Shown here: positions 54,705 through 60,678 of the stretch, piece by piece | Layout of the letters: every line of letters begins with the position of its first letter | Numbering within the stretch: position 1 is the stretch's first letter | Assembly: GCA_021325235.1 (NCBI GenBank) | Contig: JAJPHN010000013.1 | Location: 1 to 64,000 of the forward strand | DNA from: Terriglobia bacterium | Lineage (GTDB): Bacteria > Acidobacteriota > Terriglobia > Bryobacterales > Bryobacteraceae | DNA: 64,000 nucleotides | Direction of reading: 5' to 3' | Translations under genes and position numbers: made by a program | The notes under the pieces: generated by a model | Database searches by the model: none | Seen by the model: only the letters and a program-made list of their open reading frames with translations | What the model was told of the DNA's origin: nothing

Positions 54705-54785
54705 CCTTGTGCTCGATGGGCGCGGGTTCGGAACGTTTCCGCGTTAAAAAGTGCTTGTGAAATGCTACGGGTTATAAATACCAGC

Positions 54786-56387
54786 ATGCTACGTCGCGAT
54801 TTTCTCCACACCATGGCGGCCGCGGGCGCCGCGTTACTAACTCGCATTCCCGCACGCGCCCAACAGGCGGACAGCTCGATCGAGGTCTTTCCGAATGAGC
54901 CGCTCGGCGAGATTTCACCGAATATCTACGGCCATTTTACGGAACACATCGGCGGCGTGATTTATGACGGGGTCTGGGTGGGACGCAATTCGCGGATTCC
55001 GAATACAGATGGCATCCGCAATTCGCTTATCGACGCGCTGAAGCGAATCAAGGCGCCTGTCATTCGCTGGCCGGGCGGGTGTTTCGCGGATAGCTACGAC
55101 TGGAAGGACGGAATCGGGCCCGCTGGTAAGAGACCGGCGCGAACGAATTTTTGGGAGGTGGATCCGGATCTGAAGCGGCTGCACGAAAAAGGCGTGCAGG
55201 TTTTCGAAACGAACGAATTTGGCACGAACGAATTCGCGCATTTCTGCAAGCTTGTCGGAGCGGAACCTTATCTGGCGGCGAATCTGCGCAGCCTGCCGGC
55301 GCTTGATTTCGACCACTGGGTTGAATATTGCAACTCGCCCGCGGGTTCGACGAGTTATGCGCGCATGCGCGAAGCGGCCGGTTACACTGAGCCGTTTCAT
55401 GTTCGCTACTGGGGCGTGGGCAACGAGAGCTGGGGATGCGGCGGGAACTTCGCGCCAGAGGATTACGCCTCGGAATTTCGTCGCTTTACGACCTGGGTGC
55501 CGGAATATGGTCAGGACCTGTGCTTCATCGCAGCCGGTCCGAACGATAATGACATGAACTGGACGCGTCGATTCTTTTCCCAGATCTTCACCCCGCCGCG
55601 GGCTTATCATAATCCGCATTTTCGGGGCTGGTCGGTTCACCACTATTCGCGTGTTTCTAAAGGCGGAGCGCTCGAGTTTGGGCCGGCAGAGTGGTACGAG
55701 TTGTTGCGCAGCGCGAATTTCATGGAGCAGATCATTCTCGATAACTGGGCCATTATGGGCGAATACGATCGCGTGCACCGCGTGAAGCTGGTAGTGGATG
55801 AATACGGACCCTGGTACCGGGCTGGTACGGAAATCGATCCGACTCACTTATTCGGCCAACAGATCACGATGCGCGACGCGGTGGCGACGGCGCTGACCCT
55901 CGATTGTTTCAACCGGCATCCGGAGAAGGTCATGATGGCTAACTGCGCACAGTTGATTAACAATATCAATACGCTGTTTCTGGCGCACGAAGATAAGTTC
56001 TGGGTGACGCCGAACTATCACGTATTTGAGATGTATGCGGCGCATCAGGGCGCCCAGGCGGTACGCGCGAATTTCTCGGCTCCGCGCGCGGCCGAAGGCT
56101 TGTGGGGGTTGAATGGATCTGCTTCTCTTAAGGGTAAGGCGCTGACGCTGACCGTGGTCAATTCGAGTGTCGATGCGCCGCGGACGAGTCAGATTTCAGT
56201 CAATGGCGGGCGCATTACATCGGCGCAGGGTATGGTTCTGCATGCCTCCGACATTCACGCGCACAATACGTTTGAAGATCAGAAAGCGGTAGTGCCGAAT
56301 AAAATTTCGGTACAGGTGCAGGATCGTTCGTTTCAAACTGAGTTCCCGGCCGCTTCCGTTACAAAGATTGAGTTACAGCTCGGCTGA
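54786..56387 (+). CDS. Alpha-L-arabinofuranosidase (GH51)
   Basis: A 533-residue exported enzyme. The start at 54786 is preferred over the ATG at 54762 because LRRDFLHTMAAAGAALLTRI is a twin-arginine-like leader that should be near the N-terminus. The acid/base is Glu214 in GVGNESWG and the nucleophile Glu339 in VVDEYGPWY; IYGHFTEHIGGVIYDG and RWPGGCFADSYDWKDGIGP are family marks. A C-terminal beta domain follows. It releases arabinose from arabinoxylan or arabinan and complements the GH127-like enzyme at 17 kb. A strong hairpin ends the gene. Confidence 0.94.
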   Translation: MLRRDFLHTMAAAGAALLTRIPARAQQADSSIEVFPNEPLGEISPNIYGHFTEHIGGVIYDGVWVGRNSRIPNTDGIRNSLIDALKRIKAPVIRWPGGCFADSYDWKDGIGPAGKRPARTNFWEVDPDLKRLHEKGVQVFETNEFGTNEFAHFCKLVGAEPYLAANLRSLPALDFDHWVEYCNSPAGSTSYARMREAAGYTEPFHVRYWGVGNESWGCGGNFAPEDYASEFRRFTTWVPEYGQDLCFIAAGPNDNDMNWTRRFFSQIFTPPRAYHNPHFRGWSVHHYSRVSKGGALEFGPAEWYELLRSANFMEQIILDNWAIMGEYDRVHRVKLVVDEYGPWYRAGTEIDPTHLFGQQITMRDAVATALTLDCFNRHPEKVMMANCAQLINNINTLFLAHEDKFWVTPNYHVFEMYAAHQGAQAVRANFSAPRAAEGLWGLNGSASLKGKALTLTVVNSSVDAPRTSQISVNGGRITSAQGMVLHASDIHAHNTFEDQKAVVPNKISVQVQDRSFQTEFPAASVTKIELQLG

Positions 56388-56448: not shown

Positions 56449-59400
56449 TTAGTTTCCGGCGAAATGCACGAACGGAGCTACCGACGGGACACCCGCGTTA
56501 TTCACGATGAATAACATGTAGTAGCCGGGAGGTGCCAGATACGCGTTGGCTGGCGCAGTAACAGTAAGTTGCCCGCTGCCGGCCTGGAAGGATAGCGGCA
56601 GGTAGCGCTCATTTTCATCGAAGAAGTGAGTTACTGCTCCGGTGCGGATTAGAGCCACTTTCGCGATACTGGCAGCATCGGGAGTAACTACGGTGAAGTT
56701 GCTTCCGTAAGTCCACTCGGTGGGCGCTGACGTAATTGTCGGACGCGCACCTTTGAAGAGATAGGGCGGGGAGAAGAATTCTGCGCTCAATTCGTTGGGG
56801 ACGTTGCCAAAATCGGCACCCATACCGGATTCGAGAACACGGCCATCGGGAAGAAGGAGCGCCGTTCCATGGTACTCGCGCGGCGTATGCATCGAAGCTA
56901 GTGTGCTCCATGTCATAGTCTGTGGATTCCAGAGTTCAGCGGCGTAGACGGCGTTGGCAATGTTGCCGCCATTGCGGTCGGTTTCGCCGCCGGTGGCCAG
57001 CACTGTACCGTCGGGAAGCATGGTGAGATTCAGGAAGCTACGGTTATAGGCCATCGAGGCAGTCTGCTTCCAGGCGGGCGAGTTCTGGGTCATATCGAGT
57101 ACATAAGTGGTATTAGTGACCGGTCCCGAACCGCCCTGACTGTCAGTTGCCGTACCTGCCTTCATAAATTTGCCCGGAGCATACATGGTTGCGCTGGCGC
57201 CATCTACAACGTTCGAGTCGACGACAGTCCAGGTTTGGGCGTTGATGTCGAGAATGTCGGTATCGGTCGCGTATTCCGAGCCGCCAATGTGGATCACACG
57301 TCCATCCGGCATTTGATACAGGAACGGGTAAGTCTCAAACGGGTTATTGGCGTTTGTAAGTTGCGTCCAAGTATTTGTCGAAGGATTGTAAATTTCCGAA
57401 ATCCCGGCATTGCTGTGAGCGGTTGTTTGCCAGCCGGCGGTAACCATCATGCGCCCATCGGATAAAGTCAGCACATTTGGATACCAGCGCTTGTATTTCA
57501 TGTTCGGAACGACTGTCCAGGTATTATTACTCGGGTCGAAGATTTCGGCGTTGGCGATCCCGATTGGATCGGACTGATCGCTGTAACCGCCGGCTACGAA
57601 TACCCGGCCATCGGCGAGCAGAGCGGCGCCCGAGCAGAAAAGATCGGCATTGTTGAAGGGTACGCTGGTGAATGTGTTGTGGATGTAGTCCCAAACCGTG
57701 GGGGTCTGCCCATCCTGATAGAAGAGGATCGTGTTGTTATGCAGCAGAATAAGATTGACCGCAACGGCGGGCAAAGAAACTGGAGAAGACCAGCTGCCAA
57801 TAAGCGATCCGCTGCCGGAGTTATTCACCGTGATATTGACTGGCGAAGAGGTCGTGCCCTGATTCGCACTGTTTACGGCCTGAGCGGCTAGCGTATGACT
57901 TCCATCGCTTACTGTCGCGCTGTTCCAGCTCATCGAATACGGCGCAGTGGTGAGCGCCGAACCAAGCGGGGAACCGTCCAGCAAGAATTGAACGCTGGTT
58001 ATGGCGACATTATCGGTGACATTGGCTGAGACGGTTACGGTTCCCGCAACCGTACCGGAACTCGGCGAAGTCATTGTCACGGTGGGCGCCACGGGAATAA
58101 CGCCCGTGCCGGAGCCGGCGATTATTTCACAGATGGTGAGATTGTAGCGATCCGTGGTAGGAGCGGTGTCGTTGATGGTAACTTTCGTTCCGCCCGCGGG
58201 AACCGGGTTGTTCAGCTTCTGCACCCAATAGGTGTCGCCGGCCGAGCTCAAATACTGATGCACGAGCGTCTGGTTTGCGCCGGGTGTGCGAGCAATCGCG
58301 TTATCAAAATCATTGCCCACGCCGAAGATCATGGAGTTAGAGTCGAGCGTGGTCAGGCTGGCACTTGGTGCTCCGGTTGTCGCACTGGCGCTTGCGACGG
58401 CGCCAATTGCGCCGGAACCGTTGCTTCCCGACGTGTTGACACCGGAAAAACTCACCACGGTGATTGAGGACATGACGGATTGCGATAGCGTCGCGCTGAC
58501 CGATATTGAGCTCAGCGGCACTGCGGAAAAGGCGCGCCAGATCTCCGAATCTCCGCTTTGCACGTTGGTTCTTCCGACGAGCACCCAGGTGAGACCGCCG
58601 CCGGTGACGGACTGGACGGAGGTATTCGCACCTCCGAGATAGTCCGTAGCAACGAACGCCAGCAATAATTCGTTGCCAGCACTGGTAGAAAAGCTAGGTG
58701 TAGTTACGGTGGCGCTTGCGCTGGTCTGATCTTTACTCACCTGGGCATCGATTGTAATCAGATTGGAAGAAGCCGAGGCGCTGAAGTTCACGCCGGTTAC
58801 ATTCGCGCTATTGACAGTAACTCCCTGCTGAGTCGGCGTGAAGGTATAGCCGCCCTTACTCGGGGTGACGGTGTAACTTCCATTTGTCAGCCCGGTGAAC
58901 GAGTAATTGCCGGAGGAATCGGCGGTAGCCGCGGCGCTCGAGGCTCCGGTCAGCATCATCGTTGTACCCGACCCGCTCGCAGCCGGCGAGACGGTACCGG
59001 AAACGCTCCAGGTGGGAAGAGGCTGCGCCGCGAAGTCAATGCCGGTCTGGTTAGCTCCGCTGATCGTAATAGGCTCGCTAGCGGGCGAAAACGTAAATCC
59101 GGACTTCGAGGGCGTGATGGTGTAACTGCCGTTGGAGAGCCCGCTGAAGCTATAGTTGCCGGAGCTATCCGCCGTTACGGTGGCGCTGGCTGCTCCGCTC
59201 AGTGTAAGAGTCGCGCCGCTTCCCGAACTCGCCGGAGTGATGGATCCGGAAGCGCTCCAGGTCGGAGTGGTCGTGGTATTTGCCAGGATTTCGCAAATCT
59301 CGAGATTGTAGCGGTCACCTGTCGGTGCCGTATCGTTAATCGAGACGCTGGTCGCGCTGGCGGCAATGGCACTGTTCTGCATCTGCACCCAATAGGTGTC

Positions 59401-59982
59401 TCCGGCGGAGGTCAGAAACTGGTGAACCAGGCTCTGATTCGTACCCGGGGTTCTGGCCGTGGCGTTGTCGAAATCGTTCCCGACACCGAAGACCAGCGAG
59501 CCGTTCCGAGTCGTTTTGAGAGTGGCCGAAGGCGCTCCTTTGGTCGCGTTTGCGCTGGCGACGGCACCGATTGCACCCGAGCCGTTCGTGCCGGTGGTAT
59601 CCACACCCGCGAAACTAACCACGGTGATCGACGAGATGACAGATTGCGAAAGAGTGGCCGTGACGTAGACAGCATTCAGCGCGCTCGGGGCAAAGGCGCG
59701 CCAGATCTCGGAATCGCCGCTTTGAACATTTGTACGCCCGACAAGCTGCCAGGTCAGGCCGCCGCCGCTCACGCTGGTAACAGTCGTATTCGCACCTTGT
59801 AAGTAATCTGTCGCAATAAACGCCAGAAGTAACTCCTGGCCGGAGGTGGTCGAAAGAGCCGGAGAAGTTACTGTGCTGCTGGCCGACGACTGATCGGTTG
59901 CGACCTTCGCATCAATTGTGATGGCGGCCTGGACGGTATGAGTCAAGCCAATCAGGGCAAGTAAGAGCGCACGAATTCTCAT
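56449..59982 (-). CDS. Secreted copper-radical oxidase-like protein (galactose/glyoxal oxidase fold) with duplicated N-terminal modules
   Basis: A 1177-residue exported protein from the ATG at 59982 (RIRALLLALIGLTHTVQA is a signal peptide; a 61-residue upstream extension is not credible). Layout: a ~210-residue beta module at 20-235 repeated at 408-622 (both carry LVGRTNVQSGDSEIWRAF); between them two ~80-residue SdrD/CNA-B-like repeats (TWSASGSI at 241, TWSVSGTV at 323); an Ig-like domain about 627-715; then a seven-blade kelch region and DUF1929-type end, 722-1177. The active-site set of galactose oxidase is complete: Cys783 (DLFCSG), Tyr834 (RWYP), Tyr1037-His1038 (REYHG) and His1119 (VTHFF), corresponding to Cys228, Tyr272, Tyr495, His496 and His581. 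It likely oxidises an alcohol or aldehyde and produces H2O2. The substrate is unknown. The two large modules may bind carbohydrate or the cell surface. Confidence 0.88.
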   Translation of the reverse strand: MRIRALLLALIGLTHTVQAAITIDAKVATDQSSASSTVTSPALSTTSGQELLLAFIATDYLQGANTTVTSVSGGGLTWQLVGRTNVQSGDSEIWRAFAPSALNAVYVTATLSQSVISSITVVSFAGVDTTGTNGSGAIGAVASANATKGAPSATLKTTRNGSLVFGVGNDFDNATARTPGTNQSLVHQFLTSAGDTYWVQMQNSAIAASATSVSINDTAPTGDRYNLEICEILANTTTTPTWSASGSITPASSGSGATLTLSGAASATVTADSSGNYSFSGLSNGSYTITPSKSGFTFSPASEPITISGANQTGIDFAAQPLPTWSVSGTVSPAASGSGTTMMLTGASSAAATADSSGNYSFTGLTNGSYTVTPSKGGYTFTPTQQGVTVNSANVTGVNFSASASSNLITIDAQVSKDQTSASATVTTPSFSTSAGNELLLAFVATDYLGGANTSVQSVTGGGLTWVLVGRTNVQSGDSEIWRAFSAVPLSSISVSATLSQSVMSSITVVSFSGVNTSGSNGSGAIGAVASASATTGAPSASLTTLDSNSMIFGVGNDFDNAIARTPGANQTLVHQYLSSAGDTYWVQKLNNPVPAGGTKVTINDTAPTTDRYNLTICEIIAGSGTGVIPVAPTVTMTSPSSGTVAGTVTVSANVTDNVAITSVQFLLDGSPLGSALTTAPYSMSWNSATVSDGSHTLAAQAVNSANQGTTSSPVNITVNNSGSGSLIGSWSSPVSLPAVAVNLILLHNNTILFYQDGQTPTVWDYIHNTFTSVPFNNADLFCSGAALLADGRVFVAGGYSDQSDPIGIANAEIFDPSNNTWTVVPNMKYKRWYPNVLTLSDGRMMVTAGWQTTAHSNAGISEIYNPSTNTWTQLTNANNPFETYPFLYQMPDGRVIHIGGSEYATDTDILDINAQTWTVVDSNVVDGASATMYAPGKFMKAGTATDSQGGSGPVTNTTYVLDMTQNSPAWKQTASMAYNRSFLNLTMLPDGTVLATGGETDRNGGNIANAVYAAELWNPQTMTWSTLASMHTPREYHGTALLLPDGRVLESGMGADFGNVPNELSAEFFSPPYLFKGARPTITSAPTEWTYGSNFTVVTPDAASIAKVALIRTGAVTHFFDENERYLPLSFQAGSGQLTVTAPANAYLAPPGYYMLFIVNNAGVPSVAPFVHFAGN

Positions 59983-60096: not shown

Positions 60097-60678
60097 ATGG
60101 GATGTTTTCCGACGAATTGGAAATGCATATCGGCGCTTTGCCTGGCAACTGTTCTGGTTGCACAAACGAAACGAGAGCTGGTTAACGGATTTTCCCTTGA
60201 GGCGCCCGCGGGCAATCTGGTGTCGATCAGCTCAGCTGCGGGACGACCAACGGTGGTCATTTTCGTATCGGCGCGCTGCCCGATTTCGAATGCGTTCAAT
60301 GCTCGAATCAACACACTGTACGAACAATTCGGTAAACAAGTGAACTTCATTGTGCTGGATTCGAATGTGAATGAATCGGCTGCCGAGATCCAGGCGCACG
60401 CCAAGGCCATGGAGTACGATTTTCCGGTGTACCGGGATCGAGAAAACAGAGTCGCGGATCTGCTCGGGGCGGTAGCGACTCCCGACAGCTTTGTCATCGA
60501 TAAGCACGGGATGATCAGTTATCACGGATACATCGAAGACGCTCCGAATCCGGCCCGGAGCAAAGATCCCGCTCTGCGGCTCGCGATTGAAGCGGCGTTA
60601 CACGAGCGTCCAGCGCCGGTGCCCGAGACGCATGCTCGCGGCTGCGCGATCCGGCGCACAGTCGATTTACGTCCCTGA
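60097..60678 (+). CDS. Redoxin (AhpC/TlpA-like) protein, exported
   Basis: A 193-residue protein with a hydrophobic leader (WKCISALCLATVLVAQT). The thioredoxin-like core has VVIFVSARCPISNAFN with Cys61 and no second CxxC cysteine, then ATPDSFVIDKHGMISYHGYI with the cis-proline. A further cysteine near the end (HARGCAIRR, about residue 184) is conserved in this group in my memory. It resembles the peroxiredoxin-like exported redoxins of Acidobacteriota and Planctomycetota. It diverges from the copper-oxidase gene and could guard against its H2O2; that link is inference. Confidence 0.8.
   Translation: MGCFPTNWKCISALCLATVLVAQTKRELVNGFSLEAPAGNLVSISSAAGRPTVVIFVSARCPISNAFNARINTLYEQFGKQVNFIVLDSNVNESAAEIQAHAKAMEYDFPVYRDRENRVADLLGAVATPDSFVIDKHGMISYHGYIEDAPNPARSKDPALRLAIEAALHERPAPVPETHARGCAIRRTVDLRP

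Follow-up and report, generated by a model that had tools for sequence, protein, structure and literature searches.

The window analysed here is a stretch of 64,000 nucleotides (positions 1 to 64,000, forward strand, of contig JAJPHN010000013.1 in assembly GCA_021325235.1) from a Terriglobia bacterium of the family Bryobacteraceae, phylum Acidobacteriota. Its minus strand carries a gene for a large multi-module protein, probably a secreted AA5-family oxidase of the copper-radical type, in which a signal-like start is followed, from the N- to the C-terminus, by a module without a family name, two prealbumin-like repeats, a second copy of the module, a Big_7 domain, a kelch propeller and a galactose-oxidase E-set domain. 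The features of the gene are the following.

56449..59982 (-): putative copper-radical oxidase gene (AA5, multi-module), 1177 amino acids, ATG at 59982
59926..59982 (-): signal-peptide-like start, residues 1-19, judged by eye
59278..59925 (-): module 1, residues 20-235, unnamed all-beta family; predicted local distance difference test score (pLDDT) of the model 97.3
59023..59262 (-): prealbumin/CNA-B-like repeat 1, residues ~241-320, from Pfam
58768..59013 (-): prealbumin/CNA-B-like repeat 2, residues ~324-405, from Pfam
58105..58761 (-): module 2, residues 408-626, 72% identity with module 1
57883..58086 (-): Big_7 Ig-like domain, residues 633-700, from Pfam
56746..57810 (-): kelch beta-propeller, residues ~725-1079, from Pfam, phmmer and the predicted structure
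56464..56745 (-): GO-like E-set domain, residues 1080-1173, from Pfam
57634..57636 (-): Cys783, presumed thioether partner (GlxA Cys121), from alignments
57481..57486 (-): Trp833-Tyr834, the GlxA Trp288-type Trp and the cofactor Tyr, from alignments
57430..57432 (-): Trp851, near the galactose oxidase Trp290 position, from alignments
56869..56874 (-): Tyr1037-His1038, axial Tyr and copper His, from alignments
56626..56628 (-): His1119, second copper His, from alignments

The domain assignments of the catalytic part are well above the Pfam cut-offs (GO-like_E_set 93.4 bits, cut-off 25; Kelch_6 69.8 bits, cut-off 25.3), with further matches to several kelch models and, above its cut-off, to Glyoxal_oxid_N. 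CarboxypepD_reg/SdrD_B/SpaA-type repeats, 63% identical to each other, lie between the modules at ~245-400, so that the labels "CNA-B-like" and "Ig-like" given to the intervening parts in an earlier, sequence-only reading are fair. The same reading had called the two modules near-identical, which goes too far; with ~215 residues each and 72% identity over 218 columns they are alike only. The whole protein contains just three cysteines, at 230, 618 and 783. Since Cys230 and Cys618 sit in the modules, at equivalent positions, Cys783 is the sole cysteine of the catalytic part. A consensus scan gave one promoter-like site upstream of the gene, on which no conclusion is based.

Three lines of evidence support the presence of a copper-radical site, namely sequence, conservation and fold. 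First, Cys783, Tyr834, Tyr1037, His1038 and His1119, the positions already named in the sequence-only reading, align with their counterparts in GlxA (4unm) and in a Pseudoarthrobacter galactose oxidase (9g8h), and in the phmmer alignments the stretches DLFC, RWYP, R-x-YH and TH pair with those of GlxA. The solved GlxA chain ranks first in that search (expectation value E 2.2e-55), followed by the Pseudoarthrobacter enzyme and fungal AA5 enzymes; with this value, and with E 1e-77 for the match to the GlxA model, a chance match is not an issue. Judged from the sequence, the order of kelch propeller and E-set domain together with the ligand set places the protein among the AA5 copper-radical oxidases.

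Secondly, the five cofactor and copper residues are conserved in 14 of 14 rows of one alignment and complete in all 15 module-bearing oxidases, the one in the window included, as well as in 51 of the 52 other rows of an alignment of 67 AA5 sequences. These rows comprise 65 sequences from genomes and two solved references; three duplicates (L105, L106, L075), rows shorter than 400 residues and matches that did not span profile positions 118-540 or scored <=150 bits were left out, and two module-AA5 genes (G960, G995) enter no count. The sole incomplete ligand set among the 67 belongs to L077, in which Tyr replaces the first copper His (CYYYH). A large, repeat-rich protein with a signal-like start might also be a catalytically dead kelch adhesin that has kept the motif only. 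Dead copies would be expected to lose the five residues, and their retention in both groups of rows, across three phyla, makes this explanation highly improbable.

Thirdly, the predicted structure of residues 628-1177, built on 14 sequences, is of good quality (mean pLDDT 85.4, predicted template modelling score 0.85) and superposes on GlxA with Z 47.3, at 2.3 A over 448 residues and 29% identity. The Pseudoarthrobacter enzyme is level with it (Z 47.0, 33% identity), galactose oxidase 1gof follows with Z 44.6 and the fungal aldehyde oxidase 9n3u with Z 40.4 at 25% identity, while the best match outside AA5 reaches Z 24.1. Foldseek ranks the same AA5 enzymes first.

The surroundings of the site point to a particular type of enzyme. 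In galactose oxidase the stacking Trp290 comes from another part of the chain, whereas in GlxA and a fungal AA5_1 aldehyde oxidase a flipped Trp directly precedes the cofactor Tyr, as described in the available text of PMC13094651. The protein in the window has Trp833 just before Tyr834, in RWYP as in GlxA, and since the entries for GlxA W288A show an Ala opposite Trp833 the numbering of the GlxA-type Trp is fixed. Trp occupies this position in 15/15 module-bearing rows and in 48/52 of the others. An Arg-bearing segment of galactose oxidases, which we take to be the galactose-binding Arg330 segment, is gapped out in the window protein, and TYP stands there as in GlxA. By these residues the active site is GlxA/glyoxal-oxidase-like.

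A second Trp of the protein, Trp851, lies close to where galactose oxidase has Trp290, but the loop is shorter by one residue than that of 9g8h. Ten of the 15 module-bearing rows (not L050 and L052-L055) have a Trp within columns 849-853, and so do 15 of the 52 others; of these 15, three rows are of the galactose-oxidase type with Gly before the Tyr, in eleven the Trp stands two residues earlier, and L109 alone has it in the same column. The idea that the two-Trp pattern is unique to the module-bearing clade was therefore rejected, given L109 and the 11 rows of another lineage that combine RWY with a Trp two residues earlier. That second AA5 lineage, from the family of the window's host (L080, L082-L085, L087-L091, L093), carries RWYN plus TMWGR or TWWGR; its frames span 914-2247 residues, weak Big_7-type matches lie behind the oxidase, and it is itself a two-Trp candidate.

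Trp851 and the tie in superposition would both fit a true galactose or primary-alcohol oxidase, similar to the Pseudoarthrobacter enzyme, with the C6 hydroxyls of sugars in a module-bound polymer as its target. The Pseudoarthrobacter siccitolerans galactose oxidase (9g43, 9g8h) shares with the window protein the fold, the ligands, a bacterial origin and a Trp near position 851. However, it has RGYQ, with Gly before the cofactor Tyr, where the window protein has Trp (RWYP); it possesses the Arg-bearing segment that is absent here; its Trp loop differs in length; and it has no match to the module profile. We consider such an enzyme unlikely. The GlxA-type site preferred here agrees better with Streptomyces lividans GlxA (4unm; AA5 without subfamily), which has the same fold, the complete ligand set, the Trp adjacent to the cofactor Tyr and the TYP segment, although Trp851 is extra in the window protein. 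The fungal AA5_1 enzyme FgrAldOx (9n3u) likewise has Trp adjacent to its cofactor Tyr, but it superposes less well and carries WSC domains in front where the window protein has modules (available text of PMC13094651).

The modules belong to no described family that we could find. Among 61 members scanned none matched a Pfam or NCBIfam family (best E 0.0018 and 0.015, respectively), and the module profile matches no PDB chain by sequence, GlxA included (best E 0.11), in agreement with the suggestion of an undescribed family in the sequence-only reading. That reading had also asked with which enzymes the module occurs elsewhere. A pattern-based scan of genome contigs placed it at 38 loci in four phyla, with hosts among Acidobacteriota, Actinomycetota, relatives of Geobacter (Thermodesulfobacteriota) and one Burkholderiales metagenome-assembled genome (MAG), the copy in the latter being possibly a misbinned contig. 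At 13 of the 38 loci, in three phyla and in differing domain orders, the module shares one open frame with an AA5 domain; some of the remaining loci are cut by contig ends. A whole or partial N,N-dimethylformamidase-like domain occurs at six (L030, L032, L036, L037, L040, L042). Pfam was run on 14 module carriers, 12 of them from the 38 loci, and assigned AA5 to three, and a formamidase-like, a GH10, an RCC1/TIG and a lysyl-oxidase-like domain to one each; the other seven had Ig-like, fn3 or other non-enzyme matches only, or none. The GH10-containing carrier counts in favor of a galactose oxidase working on a bound polymer.

The distribution of the module is sparse. It was found in 3/60 genomes and in 4/297 genomes of the phylum (the window's own included in both), in 7/197 genomes of the Paenarthrobacter family and in 3/60 of the genus Edaphobacter, where one match is weak. 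In five whole genomes with a module-AA5 protein (Edaphobacter lichenicola, KBS 83, Paenarthrobacter, Arthrobacter terricola, Sinomonas) all matches lie in that one protein; the window's own genome has a further match, in a formamidase-like protein.

Several module carriers merit mention in their own right. Giant acidobacterial proteins (L009:6052-11595, L030, L036, L040, L042) combine the N,N-dimethylformamidase-like domain with prealbumin-like repeats and C-terminal modules, with Big_7 in L009 and L030 and DUF4082-like stretches in L009 and L040. A lysyl-oxidase-like domain accompanies the module in L048:5581-9276 and L186:217-3027 by Pfam, and L187 and L188 resemble L186 by eye; the L048 copy, from Geomesophilobacter, keeps a copper-type HAHFH, and the three Micrococcaceae copies are without HxH. 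Two genes are split into overlapping frames, by frameshifts or sequencing errors: a module-AA5 gene from Arthrobacter (L055:3239-6633) and a formamidase-like module gene (L024:3251-6782, G001).

A clue to the role of the module comes from its predicted fold. The model of module 1 has 13 strands. Against the PDB the comparison gave weak matches: Foldseek reached E 8.2e-3 at best, and the highest Z was 4.6, over 96 residues. This is not evidence of a new fold. At E<=0.001 the fold matches 69 predicted viral proteins, with predicted models on both sides, the best at E 3.1e-10 and a template modelling (TM) score of 0.80 across the whole module. The best 50 of these 69 range from E 3.1e-10 to 5.9e-5, with TM by query between 0.57 and 0.84 in 49 and 0.37 in one. 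Nine of the best 50 carry the name minor tail protein and come from phages of Mycobacterium or Gordonia (e.g. A5YJY9 of Mycobacterium phage Tweety), and identity between the viral proteins and the module is 11-23%. Phage tail proteins commonly face the host surface, and for this reason a surface- or glycan-binding role of the module would be the likeliest. The predicted models hint that the module may bind a surface or glycan.

At the sequence level, a profile comparison did not show the module to be related to the tail-protein family of Tweety: it scored 13.3, whereas 60 shuffles reached up to 20.8 and reversal of the profile gave 18.8. Searching three module sequences against phage records by tblastn gave no match at E 1e-5 nor at E 1, tblastn against plasmids gave none, and nothing in PHROGs fell below E 0.05. 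A duplication of two ~107-residue halves within the module likewise found no support (profile score 12.1, against 12.1 reversed and up to 20.4 in 100 column shuffles). A viral contig from IMG/VR (L194:436-1245) encodes a stand-alone module protein of 269 residues with 46% identity, in a stretch that ends in a tyrosine-recombinase-like frame by eye.

The history of the fusion was approached with a midpoint-rooted tree of the 67 AA5 rows. All 15 module-bearing oxidases fall within one starred set of 17, with a Shimodaira-Hasegawa-like approximate likelihood ratio test (SH-aLRT) support of 99; the remaining two are L073, whose front is cut by a contig edge, and L108, a frame of 1665 residues with no module. 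As drawn, the tree needs two changes for the module-AA5 fusion, and a single origin may be compatible with the starred branches. Both modules precede the oxidase in Acidobacteriota and the Burkholderiales MAG, one stands on each side in Micrococcaceae, and a gp6 MAG has one in front. In the module tree the modules of one protein are sisters in the window (support 94), L038 (86) and L046 (83) and are not sisters in L028, L041, L045, L047 and L051, which hints that modules may have been homogenised within some proteins. The available text of PMC11267884 cites a bacterial AA5 that is joined to a CE3 domain. No title among the literature matches listed, which leave most subscription journals uncovered, concerns the module-AA5 architecture.

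The neighborhood of the gene offers a candidate partner.

60097..60678 (+): divergent redoxin gene (AhpC-TSA/thioredoxin fold), 114 bp from the oxidase start, from Pfam and locus comparison
54762..56387 (+): GH51-arabinofuranosidase-like gene, by eye, tail to tail with the oxidase

The redoxin fits Pfam AhpC-TSA, and ResA weakly. A homolog lies directly downstream of the oxidase, on its strand, in L031, L046 and L047 (45-57% identity) and L134 (50%), so that a redoxin adjoins the oxidase in five of 15 distinct module-AA5 loci, the window included. The five redoxin-linked oxidases make up a five-row branch with SH-aLRT 92 and no star, in which L107 is the oxidase of L134. The redoxin was absent from 17 loci (L135-L151) whose AA5 genes showed no module; their flank lengths differ, and L136 is cut at the front. 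Three other redoxins found in the window's own genome have <=32% identity to this one. Two Cys are common to the four aligned copies, the first in R-C-P-[IL]-S and the second in the C-terminal motif G-C-[AS]-[IV]-R; a fifth row of the alignment, L102, was read on the wrong strand and does not count. In Streptomyces, according to the available text of PMC4736821, the maturation of GlxA under low copper depends on the chaperone Sco and the peroxidase DtpA, added copper compensates for their loss, and DtpA in the authors' view probably also removes hydrogen peroxide (H2O2). By analogy, the redoxin could perhaps be a maturation factor or a guard against H2O2.

For the GH51-like gene, comparison with the other 13 loci gave no counterpart at E 1e-15. 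Across the 14 loci, shared neighbors besides the redoxin amount to two other pairs only (L047-L051, L050-L055, 34% identity), in a comparison that covered frames of up to 900 residues and genes within ~6 kb and included no search aimed at copper chaperones; matches inside the oxidase genes on other frames were discarded as coding artefacts. These data bear on a further explanation, in which the protein is a structural or morphogenetic surface protein whose oxidase contributes to the making of an exopolysaccharide, as GlxA does together with CslA. The two form a cellulose synthase complex, as stated in the available text of PMC11022532, and the repeat-rich, adhesin-like architecture would suit such a role. 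The lack of a widely shared neighbor besides the redoxin speaks against it, although weakly given the limits of the comparison, and we regard this explanation as quite unlikely.

We hypothesize, with a probability of roughly 0.72, that the gene encodes a secreted AA5 copper-radical oxidase with a GlxA/glyoxal-oxidase-type active site, in which the modules serve as a surface or polysaccharide anchor; the claim derives from sequence comparison and predicted models. According to this hypothesis the protein would be exported by its signal-like start, and the Cys783-Tyr834 thioether would form after copper loading, with a single copper ion held by Tyr834, Tyr1037, His1038 and His1119. The enzyme would then oxidise a small aldehyde (in its gem-diol form) or a primary alcohol, which might be part of a glycan, and pass the two electrons to O2, giving H2O2. 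The paired modules, spaced by the prealbumin-like repeats, would hold it on the cell surface or on a polysaccharide, and the neighboring redoxin might either remove H2O2 or help to mature the site by handling copper or thiols, the part that Sco plays for GlxA.

Several results weigh against this interpretation. The protein scores 261.9 bits against the GlxA equivalog NF052501 (NCBIfam), far below the cut-off of 800, and in the tree GlxA is a long branch that is not joined with the module-bearing clade. Because the ten clade rows with the additional Trp also carry a galactose-oxidase-like feature, substrate class is not readable off one residue. Most of the best 50 of the 69 viral fold matches are uncharacterised or unnamed, and ten of the 15 module-AA5 loci have no redoxin beside the oxidase. 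A bolder combined claim, that the module founds a superfamily of surface- or glycan-binding domains common to phage tails and oxidases, that the two Trps combine the galactose-oxidase and glyoxal-oxidase arrangements, and that the redoxin is a dedicated maturation factor, strikes us as rather doubtful.

In conclusion, the aligned sequences indicate that a known enzyme family has here a real variant, which is conserved and occurs in three phyla. To our knowledge, few bacterial copper-radical oxidases have been characterised. Three features are new here: an unnamed module with a predicted fold also seen in phage tail proteins, a second sphere of unusual make-up and, in one branch, a conserved redoxin neighbor. 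The sequence-only reading, borne out as to the domains and the five residues, had said nothing of the GlxA-like type of the site, of Trp851 or of the redoxin. No solved structure turned up for the module, which would make a new family of domains, and the redoxin is a candidate partner for maturation of the site outside Streptomyces. A clade with Trp at both places would provide a natural test of how second-sphere Trp residues control radical stability and substrate class.

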